Assembly: GCA_029881995.1 (NCBI GenBank)
Contig: JAOULO010000017.1
Coordinates: 1 to 60,377 of the forward strand
Source: Gammaproteobacteria bacterium
GTDB lineage: Bacteria > Pseudomonadota > Gammaproteobacteria > UBA6429 > Thiohalophilaceae
DNA length: 60,377 nucleotides
Direction of reading: 5' to 3'
The position numbers were made by a program, and so were the translations under genes. Shown here piece by piece: positions 35,982 to 59,192 of the stretch (positions are counted from its first letter, which is position 1; each line of letters begins with the position of its first letter). The notes below the pieces were generated by a model. The model was not told the origin of the DNA and ran no database searches. It worked only from the letters and a program-made list of their open reading frames with translations.

Positions 35982-36485
35982 TTACATACAACCACAATCC
36001 ACATCTAGGGATTTGTTTGACAGCCAGAGTATCCAGCGAACGCGAGTCTGGTTCTTATGAGGGAAGGTGCCTGTCTGAACGGTGACCTGACCCTGTTGAG
36101 CCAGTTTTAGATGGCTTTTATGAATCCTGATTTTACTGGAAGATGAAGTATCCATATTGGTCAGGCCAGAATAAACAACTAGATACCCATGTATTACGGT
36201 TTGTGTGTTTGCCTGTTTAAGTTTGATGGCCATGCCGTAGCTTTTACTGGCGAGCTGAGTCACATCTAACTTATCAATCTCATTAAGCATGGGTGGCAAG
36301 CTTTCATCGGCATAGACGGTGGGCTGAAAAGACTCACCGTGTTTAACCGTCGTCCCAATATCAAGTAGTCCTATAGAGTAGCCAGTGAGATTGACTAGTT
36401 TTGTGATCTTTAAGACAGTCTCACTATTGGCAATTTGGGGCAATAACAGGATTGCGATAAACGGTATACGAAACCAGGTTTTCAA
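35982..36485 (-). CDS. Exported hypothetical protein, 167 aa
   Basis: A signal peptide (MKTWFRIPFIAILLLPQIANS) precedes a beta-rich mature protein of ~146 residues with no recognised domain; the C-terminus has a Cys pair (DVDCGCM). It is convergent with the 632-residue lipoprotein (two bases between stop codons) and divergent from the DUF4105 gene at 36642, with a 156-bp shared promoter region. Function unknown. Confidence 0.65.
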   Translation of the reverse strand: MKTWFRIPFIAILLLPQIANSETVLKITKLVNLTGYSIGLLDIGTTVKHGESFQPTVYADESLPPMLNEIDKLDVTQLASKSYGMAIKLKQANTQTVIHGYLVVYSGLTNMDTSSSSKIRIHKSHLKLAQQGQVTVQTGTFPHKNQTRVRWILWLSNKSLDVDCGCM

Positions 36486-53413: not shown

Positions 53414-55741
53414 TCACCCAGAGTAGCTACTGATATTTTCCTTATGCAAGGATGTGTTCTGGTTGAGTGCAAAATACATGGCTTCTTCCAGTTGCTTGAG
53501 ATTAACGGGTTTTGTTAAATAGCGGTAGAAACCGGCGTTCAGACCAGCAGCAATATCATGCTCATGGGCAACAGCACTCAGGGCGATGACGGGAATATCC
53601 GCTGTCTCAGGTATTGTTTTAAGTCGGGCCAATGCCTCAAAGCCACTCATGTCCGGTAACTTGATATCCATTAGAATCAAATCCGGTTGGTGTTTTTTTG
53701 CCAGAGACAGGCCGCTACATGCTGTATTGGCAGCAAGCAGATTGATATTGTCTTTTTTCTCAATAAATCCTTCAATCAGGCGCAGGTTTGCTGGATTGTC
53801 TTCAACATAAAGAACATTGATATTGCCTTGTGTCATTAGAATATTCTCATTATTGTAATTTTGAGTTTGTTCAGAAATTTGGTGATCGGCAGGGGCAAGG
53901 GCAAATTCAACCCAGAAGGTACTGCCTACACCCTCAGTGCTTTCAACACCAATATCGCCACCCATGGTTTCGGTGAGTCGCTTGACCAGGGTCAGTCCAA
54001 TACCTGTTCCGGATTCTTCAATACCTTCCTTACCCAGTCGATCAAAAGGTGTAAACAGTCTATGCATTAAGGCTTCCGGGATTCCCTGACCGGTGTCTTT
54101 GATGTGAACGCGTAATTGATCATGGTGTGTGGTGCACGACACCTCAATAGAACCGTTGGGACGATTATATTTAATAGCATTTGAAAGCAGGTTAATGATG
54201 ATCTGTTTCAGTCGACGTGGATCGGCCTGGATATAATGCGCGCATTCATCAAAAGAGGCAGTAAAGCTCAGTCTGCGTTCACTCAATAATGGATTGATCA
54301 TTGAGTGGCATTCTCTTATTAATTCACACAGGTTGACGGTTTCAAGTTGTAAATCAATCGCACCTGTTTCGATGCGCGATAGATCAAGTAGATCGTCCAC
54401 CAGATCCAGCAGGTGCCAACCGGATTTAATAATTTCTCTGACAAAATTGTCAGGAGCTTCAGGCAAGTTTTCCATTTCCATTAGCTGTGCAAAGCCAAGA
54501 ATGCCGTTTAATGGAGTGCGGAGTTCATGGCTCATGTGAGAAAGAAATGTAGATTTGGCAAAGTTAGCAGATTCTGCCTGGGCAATTTTATCGGCCAGTT
54601 GTTGTTCCAGCTGTTTACGTTGAGTGATGTCCTGTACCGTTCCCGTCATTTTGATTGCTTTACCACTATTATCCAGAACGGCAACGGCCTCTTCATGAAC
54701 CCAGGCCTCACTACCGTCTGGGTGAATAATGCGGTGGTCGATACTGTGGGCCTTGCCATTGGCAAAGGCCTCTTTCTCTGATTGCTTGATACGTTCTACA
54801 TCATCCGGGTGCAGGGTGGCGATGAATTTTTCATAGGTAGGTTCAAACTCACCGGGGTTGTGACCAAAGATACGATAGATTTCATCAGACCAGAACAGTT
54901 TGCCAGTGGCCACATCCCAGCTCCAGTGTCCCACATGGGCAATGGCCTGGGCCACATTGAGTTGTTTGGCGCTTTCTTTGAGGGCTTCATTGGCAAGATG
55001 ATGCTCAGTCACATCACGTGCCACACCGATCATATTGAGCGGTGTGCCATCATCGGCTCGAATGACATCCCCCGTTTCTCGAAGCCAGCGCACGGTACCA
55101 TCTGGATAAACAGAGCGATGGACAATATCATATTCTGAACCATCCTCTACGGCGGCACGCACGGCTTCTCCGACAAATTCACGATCATCGGGATGGATTG
55201 AGTTAACAAAGTCCTCATAATTGGCTTCGTTTTCACCATCACCCAGGCCAATGAGTGGGCCGATCTGATCTGACCAGTACAAGTCATTGGTCTGGATATT
55301 CCAGTCCCAGACGCCGTAGTTGGCATGGCGCTGGCTTAGATTAAATCGTTCTTCGATTTGTTTGAGACGCTGTTCTTTTTTCAGGCGTTCGTCGATATTG
55401 TTATACTGGCAAATGATTAATTGACCATGAGTTTTATCTTTTATGGCGCGACGAGACTCTGTTAGCCAGAGGGTATCACCATTGCTACAGATAAAGGGGT
55501 AGTCATGAACCTGGCTTGCCAAGGACTCTTCCTGCAGCAGCAATTTCATTTTTGTCCGATTGGCCTCGTACCAGTCTGGTGCAATGAGCTGGGAGATCGA
55601 TATGTCCTGGCTTTCAGGTTCGGATAGTTTCAGCAACTCTCGAAACGCCGGGTTTGCGAACAGGAGTTTGCCATCTGTATCGACCAGACACATAGCGGTA
55701 GGCGCCGCTTCTACAAGCAGCTGGTAATCAAGTGTCGCCAT
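53414..55741 (-). CDS. Hybrid sensor histidine kinase: PAS-PAS-PAS-HisKA-HATPase-REC
   Basis: 775 residues, no membrane segments or signal, so probably cytosolic. PAS 1 (~1-115, VEAAPTAMCLVDTDGKLLFAN), PAS 2 (~130-250, YWSDQIGPLIGL, HPDDREFV), PAS 3 (~258-380, FWSDEIYRIFGHNPGEF, HPDDVERI), HisKA with phospho-His in SHMSHELRTPLNGILGF (~402-418), HATPase_c (N box NLLSNAIKYN, G boxes DTGQGIP and GTGIGL, ~505-630) and a C-terminal REC with D in LILMDIKLPDMSG. No output gene is adjacent; the two stand-alone receivers at 49.6-50.5 kb could be its partners. Divergent from lytS with a 247-bp gap. Confidence 0.93.
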   Translation of the reverse strand: MATLDYQLLVEAAPTAMCLVDTDGKLLFANPAFRELLKLSEPESQDISISQLIAPDWYEANRTKMKLLLQEESLASQVHDYPFICSNGDTLWLTESRRAIKDKTHGQLIICQYNNIDERLKKEQRLKQIEERFNLSQRHANYGVWDWNIQTNDLYWSDQIGPLIGLGDGENEANYEDFVNSIHPDDREFVGEAVRAAVEDGSEYDIVHRSVYPDGTVRWLRETGDVIRADDGTPLNMIGVARDVTEHHLANEALKESAKQLNVAQAIAHVGHWSWDVATGKLFWSDEIYRIFGHNPGEFEPTYEKFIATLHPDDVERIKQSEKEAFANGKAHSIDHRIIHPDGSEAWVHEEAVAVLDNSGKAIKMTGTVQDITQRKQLEQQLADKIAQAESANFAKSTFLSHMSHELRTPLNGILGFAQLMEMENLPEAPDNFVREIIKSGWHLLDLVDDLLDLSRIETGAIDLQLETVNLCELIRECHSMINPLLSERRLSFTASFDECAHYIQADPRRLKQIIINLLSNAIKYNRPNGSIEVSCTTHHDQLRVHIKDTGQGIPEALMHRLFTPFDRLGKEGIEESGTGIGLTLVKRLTETMGGDIGVESTEGVGSTFWVEFALAPADHQISEQTQNYNNENILMTQGNINVLYVEDNPANLRLIEGFIEKKDNINLLAANTACSGLSLAKKHQPDLILMDIKLPDMSGFEALARLKTIPETADIPVIALSAVAHEHDIAAGLNAGFYRYLTKPVNLKQLEEAMYFALNQNTSLHKENISSYSG

Positions 55742-55911
55742 GGGAATCCCCCCGAAGCAGGCTGTAACATTTAATGATACCTAAAATAGCCTAAGACCCA
55801 CTAAAATAGTAGGTAATTTTGTTAAATTTTGTGACTATCTTCTGGTTCACTCTAATACCAATAGTGGATTTGCAAGCCGGCTTTATGCAATCTGGTCGTG
55901 GTAATCGGTCT

Positions 55912-55932
55912 TTTATCACATTGGGATGAAAT
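55912..55932 (+). promoter_or_regulatory. Shared 21-bp element, copy 1 (upstream of lytS)
   Basis: TTTATCACATTG followed after nGnn by GAAAT. 18 of 21 bases equal those at 57839-57859, upstream of the barrel gene. It ends 57 bp before the TTG at 55989. Proposed binding site of the LytTR regulator. Confidence 0.6.
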
Positions 55933-55938
55933 TCACCG

Positions 55939-55961
55939 GTTAAGAAGTTTATATTCTTAAC
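55939..55961. promoter_or_regulatory. 8-bp inverted repeat upstream of lytS
   Basis: GTTAAGAA/TTCTTAAC around a 7-base GTTTATA spacer that contains a plausible -10 (TATATT at 55950-55955). It lies between element copy 1 and the lytS start. Confidence 0.45.
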
Positions 55962-55988
55962 AGGATAATTGATTACCCTATTACAATA

Positions 55989-57059
55989 TTGTGCATACAG
56001 GTTAGAGAATTGTTCCAGCAGCGTTATCACCTTTTATCTAGACATGTGGCCACCGAGTTGGTCTACGCCGTACTGTTTAATACAGCAATCGCTGTCTTAC
56101 TCAGCCTGTTGATCGAAGGTTCTCAGTTTCTGCATACCCTGATGGTTTCCCAATGTATTGGTCTGACCATGTTCAGTGCCTTCTGGTTGTTGAGTTTTGT
56201 CATCAGGCAAACAGTTTGGTGGATTGTCATTTCTTTACTGGTGGGAGCTATTGCAGGTGTTACGAACGCCATGCTGGTGTCATTGCTGTGGAATGATACA
56301 TCGCTTGTGTCGATGGAGCTTCTGCGTATAAACGGATATCGCTGGATTTTTGTTAATCTCTTTCTGGCCTTGTTCTTTGGTTCCATTGTGCTGTATTTTT
56401 TCATGAGTCGTGAGCGTCACCATCAGGCTGCCAGGACCATTCGTGAAGTACAGATTAAAAACCTTGATCACGAAAAACAGATCGCTGAGACCCAGTTGCA
56501 GTTGTTACAAGCTCAGATCGAACCCCATTTTCTGTTTAACTCACTATCAAACGTGATTAGCCTGATAGAATCCGAACCAGACAAGGCCAGATTGATGCTG
56601 GAGAGTTTGACTCGGTATTTACGCAGCAGTTTGTCACGTAGTCAGGACAGGCAGGGTTGTTTGCAGGATGAGCTGGACCTGATAGAAAACTATTTTAAAA
56701 TTTTACAAATTCGCATGGGTGAACGTCTGCAGTACAGTATCAATGTCGACAAGACATTATTAAGCTGTCCTTTTCCCATTATGTTATTGCAACCGCTGGT
56801 TGAGAATGCCATTAAACATGGTTTGGAGCCCCTGGCCGAGGGTGGCAGGGTTGAGCTTTCGATAACACGGGCTGAAGATCAATTAAAAATAACCGTGAGT
56901 GATAATGGGGTTGGTTTAAAAGAGGGTGACCTGAAGGGCTTTGGCTTGATGAATGTACGCAAGCGTTTGCAGTCACTGTATGGTGATGCAGCCCAACTTG
57001 AAATTCAGGATAACTCACCGCGTGGTGTGATAATCAGGATCGAAATGCCTTATGAATAA
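55989..57059 (+). CDS. LytS/AlgZ-type sensor histidine kinase (His_kinase family)
   Basis: 356 residues. Four N-terminal membrane helices (about 20-43, 50-70, 75-98, 115-137), a coiled linker, then a His_kinase domain with phospho-His in IEPHFLFNSLSNVISLI near 178 and an ATP-binding part with PLVENAIKHG near 268 and DNGVGL near 305. The 5' start is uncertain: TTG at 55989 gives full length; TTG at 56010 and GTG at 56046 are alternatives. It overlaps the response regulator by 8 bp. The 4-helix input has no periplasmic domain, so the stimulus may be membrane-linked. Confidence 0.9.
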   Translation: MCIQVRELFQQRYHLLSRHVATELVYAVLFNTAIAVLLSLLIEGSQFLHTLMVSQCIGLTMFSAFWLLSFVIRQTVWWIVISLLVGAIAGVTNAMLVSLLWNDTSLVSMELLRINGYRWIFVNLFLALFFGSIVLYFFMSRERHHQAARTIREVQIKNLDHEKQIAETQLQLLQAQIEPHFLFNSLSNVISLIESEPDKARLMLESLTRYLRSSLSRSQDRQGCLQDELDLIENYFKILQIRMGERLQYSINVDKTLLSCPFPIMLLQPLVENAIKHGLEPLAEGGRVELSITRAEDQLKITVSDNGVGLKEGDLKGFGLMNVRKRLQSLYGDAAQLEIQDNSPRGVIIRIEMPYE

Positions 57060-57813
57060 GCCACGCGTCATACTCGCTGACGATGAACCAAATTTGCTGC
57101 GTTTTCTCAGTGATATGTTACACAGGCTCTGGCCTGAACTGGAGATTGTTGATACGGCCGGTAACGGTATGCAGGCCCTGGGCTTGATTCGGGATGTGGA
57201 ACCGGATATTGCCTTCCTGGATATAAAGATGCCTGTTCTGACTGGTCTGCAGGTGGCACAACGAATCGCGGGGGAATGCCATGTTGTATTTATTACTGCC
57301 TATGACGAGTTTGCTGTACAGGCCTTTGAGGCATCGGCTGTTGATTACCTGCTTAAGCCAGTGGACGAACAACGCCTGCAACAGACGATTGACCGATTAA
57401 AAAAACTCAATCAATCAGAACCTGAAACGAATAACTTATCTTTACTCTTATCTCAATTGGCGGGTCATGCCAGTAAGCAGACTCCACAGTATCTGAACTG
57501 GATACGGGCGGGTGATAGTGAAAACACCTACATGGTACCCATCGATGAGGTGATCTATTTCAAGGCAGAAGATAAATACACCACTGTCGTCACACAAGAC
57601 AAGGAACACCTGATTCGCAAACCCATCCGTGAGCTGGTGGCCGAGCTGGATCCAATTCAGTTCTGGCAAATACATCGTGGAATAATTGTGCAGACCAGCC
57701 AGATTGCCAGTCTTAAAAAGGCCATCAATGGTACGTATCATGTTTCTCTCAGGGGCAGTAAAGACCAACTGACTGTCAGTCGCCGCTATGCACATTTATT
57801 CAAACAGATGTAG
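57052..57813 (+). CDS. LytTR family response regulator, 253 aa
   Basis: N-terminal REC (residues ~5-120) with VILADDEPN, phospho-Asp in DIAFLDIKMP near 57 and Lys in YLLKPVDE near 106; C-terminal LytTR DNA-binding domain (~148-250) with VIYFKAEDKYTTVVT, FWQIHRGIIV and the final VSRRYAHLF. The size fits AlgR/LytR. Partner is the kinase just upstream with which it overlaps. The two identical-type elements at 55912 and 57839 are the obvious candidate sites. Confidence 0.94.
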   Translation: MNKPRVILADDEPNLLRFLSDMLHRLWPELEIVDTAGNGMQALGLIRDVEPDIAFLDIKMPVLTGLQVAQRIAGECHVVFITAYDEFAVQAFEASAVDYLLKPVDEQRLQQTIDRLKKLNQSEPETNNLSLLLSQLAGHASKQTPQYLNWIRAGDSENTYMVPIDEVIYFKAEDKYTTVVTQDKEHLIRKPIRELVAELDPIQFWQIHRGIIVQTSQIASLKKAINGTYHVSLRGSKDQLTVSRRYAHLFKQM

Positions 57814-57838
57814 GGCATTTCACACCGATAGGTGACCG

Positions 57839-57859
57839 TTTATCACATTGTGCGGAAAT
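57839..57859 (+). promoter_or_regulatory. Shared 21-bp element, copy 2 (upstream of the barrel gene)
   Basis: TTTATCACATTG followed after nGnn by GAAAT, 18/21 identical to copy 1. It ends 53 bp before the barrel ATG at 57912; TATAAG at 57874-57879 could be the -10. GGCATTTCAC at 57814-57823 is an additional LytTR-like motif (compare E. coli YpdB). Confidence 0.6.
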
Positions 57860-57911
57860 CATACTTTGTAGCGTATAAGTTTGTAATACGTACAAAATAA
57901 GGGAAAGATCA

Positions 57912-59192
57912 ATGTGGGCAAATCGGTGGTTAATCTTTTTAATGTTGTGTCTGGTCGGCCAGGAGTGGGGCCTTGCCAGCAGCCTGCCGGACCGGCGCCG
58001 GGATCAATACCCACCTAACTTTGGCTACTTTGTTTATCCCATCTATATCCAGATTCCCGGCCTTGGTACTGCCAAGGGGGGTGGTGGCACTTTCGTTAAT
58101 GTGGCTGATTCAGATACCGACCTGACGGCCTTTTATATCGATGGTGATTTTTATGCCTCAGGCCTGACGGCACTCAATATGCATCTGATACCACAGCGCT
58201 TGATCCTGGATGCGGCCTGGTATGAGTATGATGTGGCCTTTAAGTTTTATGAGCGTGGAGTTGACTCAAACAGGAATAAATTTATTTACCCCAACGTAGC
58301 AGGAGATGGGGTAACCAGCCAACTCACTATGACCTTTTTTGACAAGCGACTGGATTTTTATTCACGCCTTGGAGAACAGAATAATAAAATAAAAAGTGTT
58401 TTTGATAGTACCGGTGATAACCGCTTTCAGACTGCGGATGCGCGAGAGGAAACCAGGCAAAGCATGACTCTGGGAATGAATATTGACCTGACCGATGACC
58501 GCCAGGACCCCAGGCGTGGTTTTCGCTTTGAGATGAACCGTAAGGAAAGGCTGGATGATGTCGATCCAGTTTTCAGCACATTCACAGTCTATGATCTGAA
58601 CCTGAGTGCCTATATTCCGATAGGCCATAAAAATACCTGGGTCTGGAATTTGTTTCGTTCTACCACCAAAATCGAACGACAGGGATCAACTAATTTTACT
58701 GAACTACAGGGACGCTTTGGTTTTAACTGCGGTTCAATATCCGATCCTGTTGCATCAAGCTCCTGTGAGAATTCTGAAGCTCAGTACATCAATTCCATTA
58801 TTGCCAACAATCGCTATGGAACAGCTAACCCCCTTGGCGGTACTCAACGGCTGAGATCCTATCCAGGGAATCGCTATTTTGCTGGTGAAACATTATTTAT
58901 TGGTACCGAGTATCGTTGGAATCTCACCGAAGAATACACACCCATGGATATCTATATCCTGCGTGGTCATCGAACCAATATGCAATTGGCCTTTTTTGCA
59001 GAAGCGGGCAGTGTGGCCGAGACCAGTTCCGGCCTGACGGATAAGCTGAAATATTCCTATGGGCTTGGTTTCAGGATGCTGTTTGAAGGGACTACGTTAC
59101 GGGCAGATATTGCCCACGGTGATGAGGGCACGGAGATGATCCTGTTTATTGACTATCCCTTTTCATTATATTCAGTGGATAGCCCAGGATAG
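57912..59192 (+). CDS. Omp85-like (bacterial surface antigen) outer-membrane beta-barrel without POTRA
   Basis: 426 residues with a signal peptide (MWANRWLIFLMLCLVGQEWG, cleaved near LASS). The mature part goes straight into amphipathic strands; no POTRA domain is seen. Surface-antigen (BamA-type barrel) hallmarks occur late: LTDDRQDPRRGFRFEMN near 195 (a typical R-G-x-R/F barrel strand), GTEYRWNLT near 335, and AFFAEAGSVA plus LKYSYGLGFRMLFEGTTLRADIA near 385 (read as GLGFRMLFEGTTLRADIA). The C-terminus ends on aromatic strands. A POTRA-less barrel could translocate or insert something, or act as a surface channel. Follows the LytTR gene, 98 bp apart. Confidence 0.8.
   Translation: MWANRWLIFLMLCLVGQEWGLASSLPDRRRDQYPPNFGYFVYPIYIQIPGLGTAKGGGGTFVNVADSDTDLTAFYIDGDFYASGLTALNMHLIPQRLILDAAWYEYDVAFKFYERGVDSNRNKFIYPNVAGDGVTSQLTMTFFDKRLDFYSRLGEQNNKIKSVFDSTGDNRFQTADAREETRQSMTLGMNIDLTDDRQDPRRGFRFEMNRKERLDDVDPVFSTFTVYDLNLSAYIPIGHKNTWVWNLFRSTTKIERQGSTNFTELQGRFGFNCGSISDPVASSSCENSEAQYINSIIANNRYGTANPLGGTQRLRSYPGNRYFAGETLFIGTEYRWNLTEEYTPMDIYILRGHRTNMQLAFFAEAGSVAETSSGLTDKLKYSYGLGFRMLFEGTTLRADIAHGDEGTEMILFIDYPFSLYSVDSPG

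Follow-up and report, generated by a model that had tools for sequence, protein, structure and literature searches.

Does a LytS/LytTR two-component pair govern both its own operon and the outer-membrane barrel gene beside it through one shared DNA element? The question is raised by a locus in a 60,377-bp stretch of DNA, hereafter the window (contig JAOULO010000017.1 of assembly GCA_029881995.1, an uncultured gammaproteobacterium of the Thiohalophilaceae), in which a sensor kinase gene (lytS), a response regulator gene (lytTR) and the gene of an Omp85-like barrel follow one another, and in which two similar 21-bp elements precede lytS and the barrel gene. An initial annotation, made from the sequence alone, had read these elements as sites through which the regulator activates its own operon and the barrel. 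Judging from comparison with related operons, we consider it likely that the 21-bp element represents, together with its 3' flank, the promoter-proximal half of a predicted LytTR site and that the pair is a near-dedicated barrel switch, a weaker site before lytS pointing to autoregulation. For the barrel, the predicted control has good support: element 2 forms the proximal half of a tandem site also found outside the family, keeps a fixed spacing to the −10 hexamer and is conserved in a sister species. For lytS, support for the predicted control is moderate: on its own element 1 is weak, yet in the sister species a similar site, likewise 98 bp from lytS, scores well with a weight matrix.

The locus and its genes

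The principal features, all on the forward strand, are as follows.

56010–57059: lytS, LytS-type sensor kinase (His_kinase PF06580 and HATPase_c; start TTG 56010 preferred over TTG 55989)
57052–57813: lytTR, response regulator with Response_reg and LytTR DNA-binding domains (Pfam matches)
57912–59192: outer-membrane barrel with a modelled Omp85 superfamily fold lacking POTRA (PF01103, AlphaFold2 model, BamA structure match)
55912–55932: element 1, core of the putative proximal half-site with 3' flank (sequence, pattern matches)
57839–57859: element 2 (sequence, pattern matches)

The kinase is of the LytS type by its Pfam matches (PF06580, E 7.2e-24; HATPase_c, E 5.2e-11), and H180 and N273, which we take to be catalytic, are unchanged across an alignment of six sequences including the window copy. 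The regulator combines a receiver (PF00072, E 1.5e-20) with a LytTR domain (PF04397, E 1.1e-25), and its residues D10, D11, D57, T82 and K102 are invariant in 6/6 aligned sequences. Its best NCBIfam match is BtsR (PRK11697), at 138.6 bits against a cut-off of 246, so it is not a BtsR equivalog. The lytS start used in the initial annotation, TTG 55989, is probably wrong, giving an N-terminus longer than that of most relatives; TTG 56010 agrees better with their N-termini in the alignment and has AGG 8 bases upstream. With this start, element 1 lies 98 bp upstream of lytS instead of 77 bp.

The shared element and chance

The description of the elements themselves was borne out. The 12-mer TTTATCACATTG is exact at 55912–55923 and 57839–57850, with no further exact copy on either strand of the window; the full 21-mers, TTTATCACATTGGGATGAAAT and TTTATCACATTGTGCGGAAAT, agree at 18/21 positions; the gaps that hold them measure 247 bp and 98 bp; and TATAAG (57874–57879) starts 14 bases past element 2. 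The accompanying estimate, a chance well below 0.01, holds for a single gap pair (a same-strand match of at least 12 bases arises in 6/1500 dinucleotide shuffles) but not across all gap pairs in 60 kb, where such a match is by our estimate unremarkable, so that further evidence is required.

Such evidence was sought in the window's own genome (G000, 3.53 Mb) and in that of the sister species (G002). The 12-mer has five copies in G000 against two for a reversed control, the other three lying within reading frames. Looser matches are less telling: matches in the window with up to two mismatches number 11 against 7.7 expected, and TTTATCRCATWG with one mismatch gives 96 matches against 48 for the control in G000 (about twofold) and 120 against 91 in G002. 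Since loose matches are near or above background, the case depends on exact copies and on comparison. The pattern TTTATCRCATWGNNNNGAAA has three perfect matches in the two genomes together, at both elements and before the orthologous G002 barrel, the three sites from which the pattern itself was derived; at up to two mismatches the counts are 15 (control 3) in G000 and 26 (control 21) in G002. Ten of the 13 other G000 matches fall in frames and one within 300 bp before a frame. In the genome-wide scan that the initial annotation had suggested, the exact element is thus not common (5 copies; TTTATCRCATWGNNNNGAAA perfect only at this locus).

A tandem LytTR-type site

According to passages of PMC4847170, LytTR sites consist of two repeats of 9–11 nt, 11–13 nt apart. 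Eight LytS/LytTR operons outside the family carry direct repeats of this kind, CCRTTYRTC-N11-CCRTTYRTC, before their first gene (G025, G114, G116, G072, G711, G569, G459, G770), and in each case only 0 to 11 of 300 permuted patterns fit equally. By the gene starts used in that comparison, the distance from the downstream repeat to the first gene is 78–92 bp in six of these operons and 160 bp in G072; in G116 a count on the sequence gives 79 bp. Read against them, the two elements extend into the following forward-strand candidates.

57816–57852: LytTR-type tandem site before the barrel, distal CATTTCACA 57816–57824, spacer 11, proximal CCGTTTATC 57836–57844, then ACAT (matrix rank 1, cmsearch)
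55889–55917: candidate degenerate LytTR tandem site before lytS, distal AATCTGGTC 55889–55897, spacer 11, proximal TCTTTTATC 55909–55917 (matrix ranks, 18/21 match of the 3' part to element 2, G002 comparison)

A weight matrix was built from the eight outside-genus sites, with none from the window's genus. It places element 2 with its distal half (57816–57852) first of 120,682 window positions; by sequence this site has the two-repeat and spacer layout of LytTR targets, with an imperfect distal repeat. The proximal 17-mer of element 1 ranks 342 of 120,722, and in G002 the lytS site ranks 5 of 23,930. An earlier four-site matrix put element 2 10th and element 1 10,449th of 120,688, and the G002 lytS and barrel sites 16th and 56th of 23,936. 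A covariance search (cmsearch) of the window with filters off lists element 2 second of 13 matches (E=0.06). The second half-site is recognisable only via the operons outside the genus. The AlgR core is CCGTTCGTC according to PMC4064291; compared by site letters alone, the four genus sites in register agree with it at 25/36 positions, a score equalled by 4/2000 permuted patterns.

A fixed distance to the −10 hexamer

Two promoter features, both on the forward strand, complete the picture.

57874–57879: −10 hexamer TATAAG of the barrel, 38 bases beyond where the proximal half-site begins (shared offset)
55947–55955: possible lytS −10 region (GTTTAT / TATATT), off the fixed spacing (tentative, from promoter alignment)

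Counted from where the proximal repeat begins, the TA of the −10 falls at offset 40 in 10/13 promoters, a number reached by 0/5000 shuffles, and no other offset between 25 and 57 has a TA in more than 2 of the 13. Offset 40 is kept by the window barrel, the G002 barrel and G002 lytS. As a separate observation, an inverted repeat (GTTAAGAA-7-TTCTTAAC, 55939–55961) spans the presumed lytS −10 and may be a second operator.

The sister species

G002 carries the same three genes, lytS, lytTR and barrel. In its LytTR-barrel gap, TTTATCGCATAGGATAGAAAG precedes the barrel by 75 bp, against 73 bp in the window, and matches the G000 consensus at 14/18 positions, equalled by 3/3000 shuffles. In a start-anchored ungapped comparison of the lytS upstream regions, the element-1 window is the best-conserved 21-mer (13/21, shift 0), and a resembling site stands 98 bp from the start in both species (TTG 56010; G002 ATG 4522). 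Over 300 bp and without the distance constraint, the best G002 lytS match is reached by 114/3000 shuffles. Upstream of lytS in the window, a divergent 775-aa PAS hybrid histidine kinase adjoins it (53414–55741); G002 has different genes there.

Weighing the readings

In the mechanism that we propose, the membrane kinase LytS would sense a signal and phosphorylate the LytTR regulator, which may then bind the two direct 9-bp CCRTTYRTC repeats that are found, conserved, on either side of an 11-bp spacer. With the downstream repeat starting 38 bp before the −10 hexamer, the regulator would activate transcription there. Its best candidate targets in G000 would be two barrels, the POTRA-less Omp85-like one next to it and a paralogue encoded on another contig, and the weaker site before lytS, with its like-placed G002 counterpart, points to possible autoregulation.

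Several results weigh against this reading. The full site of element 1 ranks only 8084 of 120,682 with the outside-genus matrix and shows the layout weakly, and element 1 breaks the −10 spacing, as do G072 and G551. The full G002 barrel site ranks 42 of 23,930. The pattern that led to the outside sites owed part of its form to element 2 and was later tuned on G114 and G116, and a blind search for paired half-sites in three genus promoters was equalled by 6/60 shuffled sets, which is not significant. A genome profile search, in which 150 of 701 first-look candidates were scored, gave no element 2 at E<=10, and a multi-locus profile search with filters was likewise without it; the training site G025 itself reached only E 0.78 in the filtered genome search. 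With filters off, the top match in the window, ahead of element 2, is coding (36450–36468), and in G002 an in-frame match comes first (E 0.019) and the barrel half-site second (E 0.78), the G002 lytS site not being among the matches listed. The pattern search found no clear site before lytS in G021, G050 and G051, none before the outer-membrane protein gene in G021 and G050 (the corresponding region of G051 lies beyond the available stretch), and no evident site in G405, G625 and G749. It was weak in G136 and G601; the G551 site was found with the profile (E 0.0005). The findings on the paralogue and the wider regulon, given below, were made post hoc. Separately, 36450–36468 was set aside as a candidate site, falling in the start of a reading frame.

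Among the alternatives, the one that survives best holds that the regulator controls barrel genes only, the lytS copy being decayed or a chance likeness, with no autoregulation. It is in keeping with the low rank of element 1 among the 120,682 positions and its departure from the fixed −10 spacing, and with the 114/3000 shuffles that equal the unconstrained G002 lytS match to the G000 consensus. Against it, elements 1 and 2 are alike at 18/21 positions, their shared 12-mer recurs in just 6/1500 shuffles, the element-1 window is the best conserved against G002 with zero shift (13/21), and the G002 site ranks 5 of 23,930; we consider it unlikely. The predicted action of LytTR on its own operon and on the barrel is well supported for the barrel (matrix rank 1, −10 spacing, G002) and moderately for lytS, where element 1 ranks 8084 and the G002 site, fifth with the matrix, is unlisted in the covariance search.

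That the regulator represses rather than activates the barrel is quite improbable: the direction of regulation is unreadable from sequence, but provided that the −10 is correctly assigned, the repeats would span about −70 to −42, where an activator usually sits, and by eye there is no good −35 hexamer. We regard as very improbable that the element is the operator of some other regulator of both genes, such as a helix-turn-helix dimer or a global activator like CRP. TCACA resembles half of a CRP site, with no TGTGA partner seen by eye at the right spacing; the repeat pair and the −10 spacing, however, also occur at LytS/LytTR operons of other families, and the exact element is not spread across the genome. 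A mere chance likeness between two AT-rich gaps, in whose favour a 12-mer common to some gap pair in 60 kb is not unusual and one-mismatch matches in G000 run at about twice the control, is barely credible in view of the sister-species conservation, the first matrix rank and the −10 spacing.

Further candidate targets

To return to the LytTR regulator as a proposed switch of barrel genes, the half-site pattern CCRTTYRTCRCAW has nine matches in G000 (control 1) and six in G002 (control 3). Only 2/9 of the G000 matches lie outside frames of at least 90 aa, one being 76 bp upstream of the window barrel and the other 71 bp upstream of a second Omp85-like barrel (the C16 paralogue, L061 7695–8954), which is 35% identical to the first. 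The site of this paralogue has a LytTR-type proximal repeat, a weak distal repeat and a spacer that resembles that of G116, lacks the TA at offset 40, and as a full site has a background fraction of 0.003. Half of the G002 matches (3/6) fall outside frames, one of them before no called gene. The second lies 101 bp upstream of a TIGR04219 outer-membrane barrel (L268 1602–2351; 197.6 bits, cut-off 105), and the third (CCATTTATCACAT, L272) lies 42 bp before a 231-aa frame, presumably CysC. Before six further barrel paralogues of G000 and G002 (the G002 C113 fragment left out), no site was found in 5/6, C16a being the exception. Four barrel genes, one of them with an assumed start, come from genomes that lack a close LytTR at E<=1e-45; three have no site and G008 has a weak match at −119. 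Another paralogue, in G002 (C266, L062 4884–6153), is divided into two overlapping frames and apparently broken.

The barrel and its family

The initial annotation had called the barrel Omp85-like and POTRA-less, a description that the further evidence supports. It matches PF01103 modestly (E=5.2e-7; 29.9 bits, above the cut-off of 24). The AlphaFold2 model, built on 50 sequences (pLDDT 87.7), has 17 strand segments, one of only 5 residues; its top Foldseek match is TamA (E 2.1e-11, TM by query 0.45), and it superimposes on F. nucleatum BamA with Z 23.4 and rmsd 3.4 over 294 aligned residues. By this model, the barrel would have the BamA/TamA-type fold of the Omp85 superfamily. No POTRA Pfam match was found at E<=0.1, and the first barrel strand of the model starts at residue 38. 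The NCBIfam family Omp85_fam (NF047779) was not reached (49.4 bits, cut-off 200), a profile search of PDB sequences gave no relative at E<=0.01, and a first scan of the genome contigs with the single protein as query gave none either.

A close orthologue is present in two genomes, both of which (2/2) have the LytS/LytTR pair; G001, a genome of the same genus at 75% completeness, lacks both the barrel and a close LytTR. Among 80 barrel-family loci in named genomes, lytS with lytTR occurs only at the sister species' own locus, L095. L166 has a LytTR-domain match alone (1e-7), L134, L165 and L162 have weak kinase matches, and no conserved neighbour gene is prominent across the 80 loci, many of which have short flanks. 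The co-conservation of barrel and kinase pair that the initial annotation had proposed as a check thus holds for close orthologues but fails at 79/80 family loci, and because of the latter the pairing is recent or local. The family (L095–L174) is otherwise found in metagenome-assembled genomes labelled Nitrospinota, SAR324, Gallionella and others.

The LytS clade and its neighbours

At a threshold of E<=1e-85, the LytS clade is present in 8/369 genomes of the class and 13/398 of the phylum, the window genome included; the G036 LytTR loci L055 and L056 fall outside it and were not counted. In 23 neighbourhoods compared (one match, G638, left out), lytS or the pair adjoins outer-membrane or envelope-export genes in 18/23, a raw count without a null rate. 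These neighbours are an Omp85-like barrel (two: window, L052), a small OMP_b-brl barrel (three: L053, L185, L069), a TonB receptor (three: L244, L245, L246, with an ExbB-type gene matched in L245) and, whole or partial, a Lol-like operon of ABC, FtsX, LolA_like and 413-aa genes (ten: L181, L182, L183, L241, L242, L243, L247, L248, L252, L251). The remaining five (L054, L184, L240 on a 3.8-kb contig, L249, L250) have no such genes.

In six of the Lol-like operons (L181, L182, L183, L247, L248, L252), genes for an ABC ATPase, an FtsX permease, LolA_like and a roughly 413-aa secreted protein are followed by lytS-lytTR. L241 ends in lytS alone, its LytTR gene lying at the operon's opposite end on the opposite strand; L242 has no LytTR labelled, and L251 has the 413-aa relative alone. 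Five scanned copies of the 413-aa protein have no Pfam match. Its last residue is aromatic in 7/8 aligned copies, so that it may reside in the outer membrane.

That the clade relatives stand beside differing outer-membrane and envelope genes suggests that these sensors form a family dedicated to the outer membrane. Whether the clade is a portable control module, with operator and −10 spacing largely kept and the client exchanged (Omp85-like barrel, OMP_b-brl, TonB receptor with ExbB, Lol-like operon), its regulon in this genus reaching unlinked barrel genes, we judge to be an even matter.

Relation to known systems

AlgZ/FimS-AlgR of Pseudomonas aeruginosa likewise places a kinase beside a REC-LytTR regulator, the AlgR side being described in passages of PMC4064291. 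The AlgR half-site core CCGTTCGTC resembles the CCRTTYRTC of the window-clade sites, a likeness of site letters. The two differ in that AlgR, in the same passages of PMC4064291, acts at several promoters and at sites not necessarily arranged as direct repeats 12 bp apart, whereas the window has 11-bp spacing and few candidate targets. BtsS/BtsR and YpdA/YpdB of E. coli are also LytS/LytTR pairs, of which BtsR and YpdB have one target gene each according to PMC5552118; the window regulator appears comparable in scale. YpdB binds a direct repeat according to PMC4847170, as proposed for the window regulator. The targets of BtsR and YpdB are the transport proteins YjiY and YhjX, whereas those of the window would be outer-membrane barrels, and the half-site letters differ. 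We take YjiY and YhjX to be located in the inner membrane.

Like the window barrel, the noNterm Omp85 subfamily is an Omp85-type barrel without N-terminal extension, a likeness drawn from its description, and the parts of that account available to us link it to no regulator (PMC4104836). The Lol-like ABC/LolA_like operons (G114, G116, G072, G711, G569, G459, others) share the LytS clade with the window, those six also the tandem site, and five of the six (not G072) the −10 spacing. They differ in that lytS(-lytTR) ends an ABC-FtsX-LolA_like-413-aa operon, whereas the window pair stands with an Omp85-like barrel. To our knowledge, outer-membrane barrels of unknown cargo rarely have a dedicated regulator and operator. 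A search of open-licence full texts returned no paper joining LytTR with Omp85 or with lipoprotein sorting, subscription papers lying mostly outside the search.

Meaning of the site

A signal-controlled outer-membrane system, as the initial annotation had envisaged, is plausible, and may be wider than supposed there. The site would offer a handle on the signal and the cargo of POTRA-less Omp85-like barrels, by following one motif across genomes, and the same motif may serve as a handle on the uncharacterised 413-aa product of the Lol-like operons.

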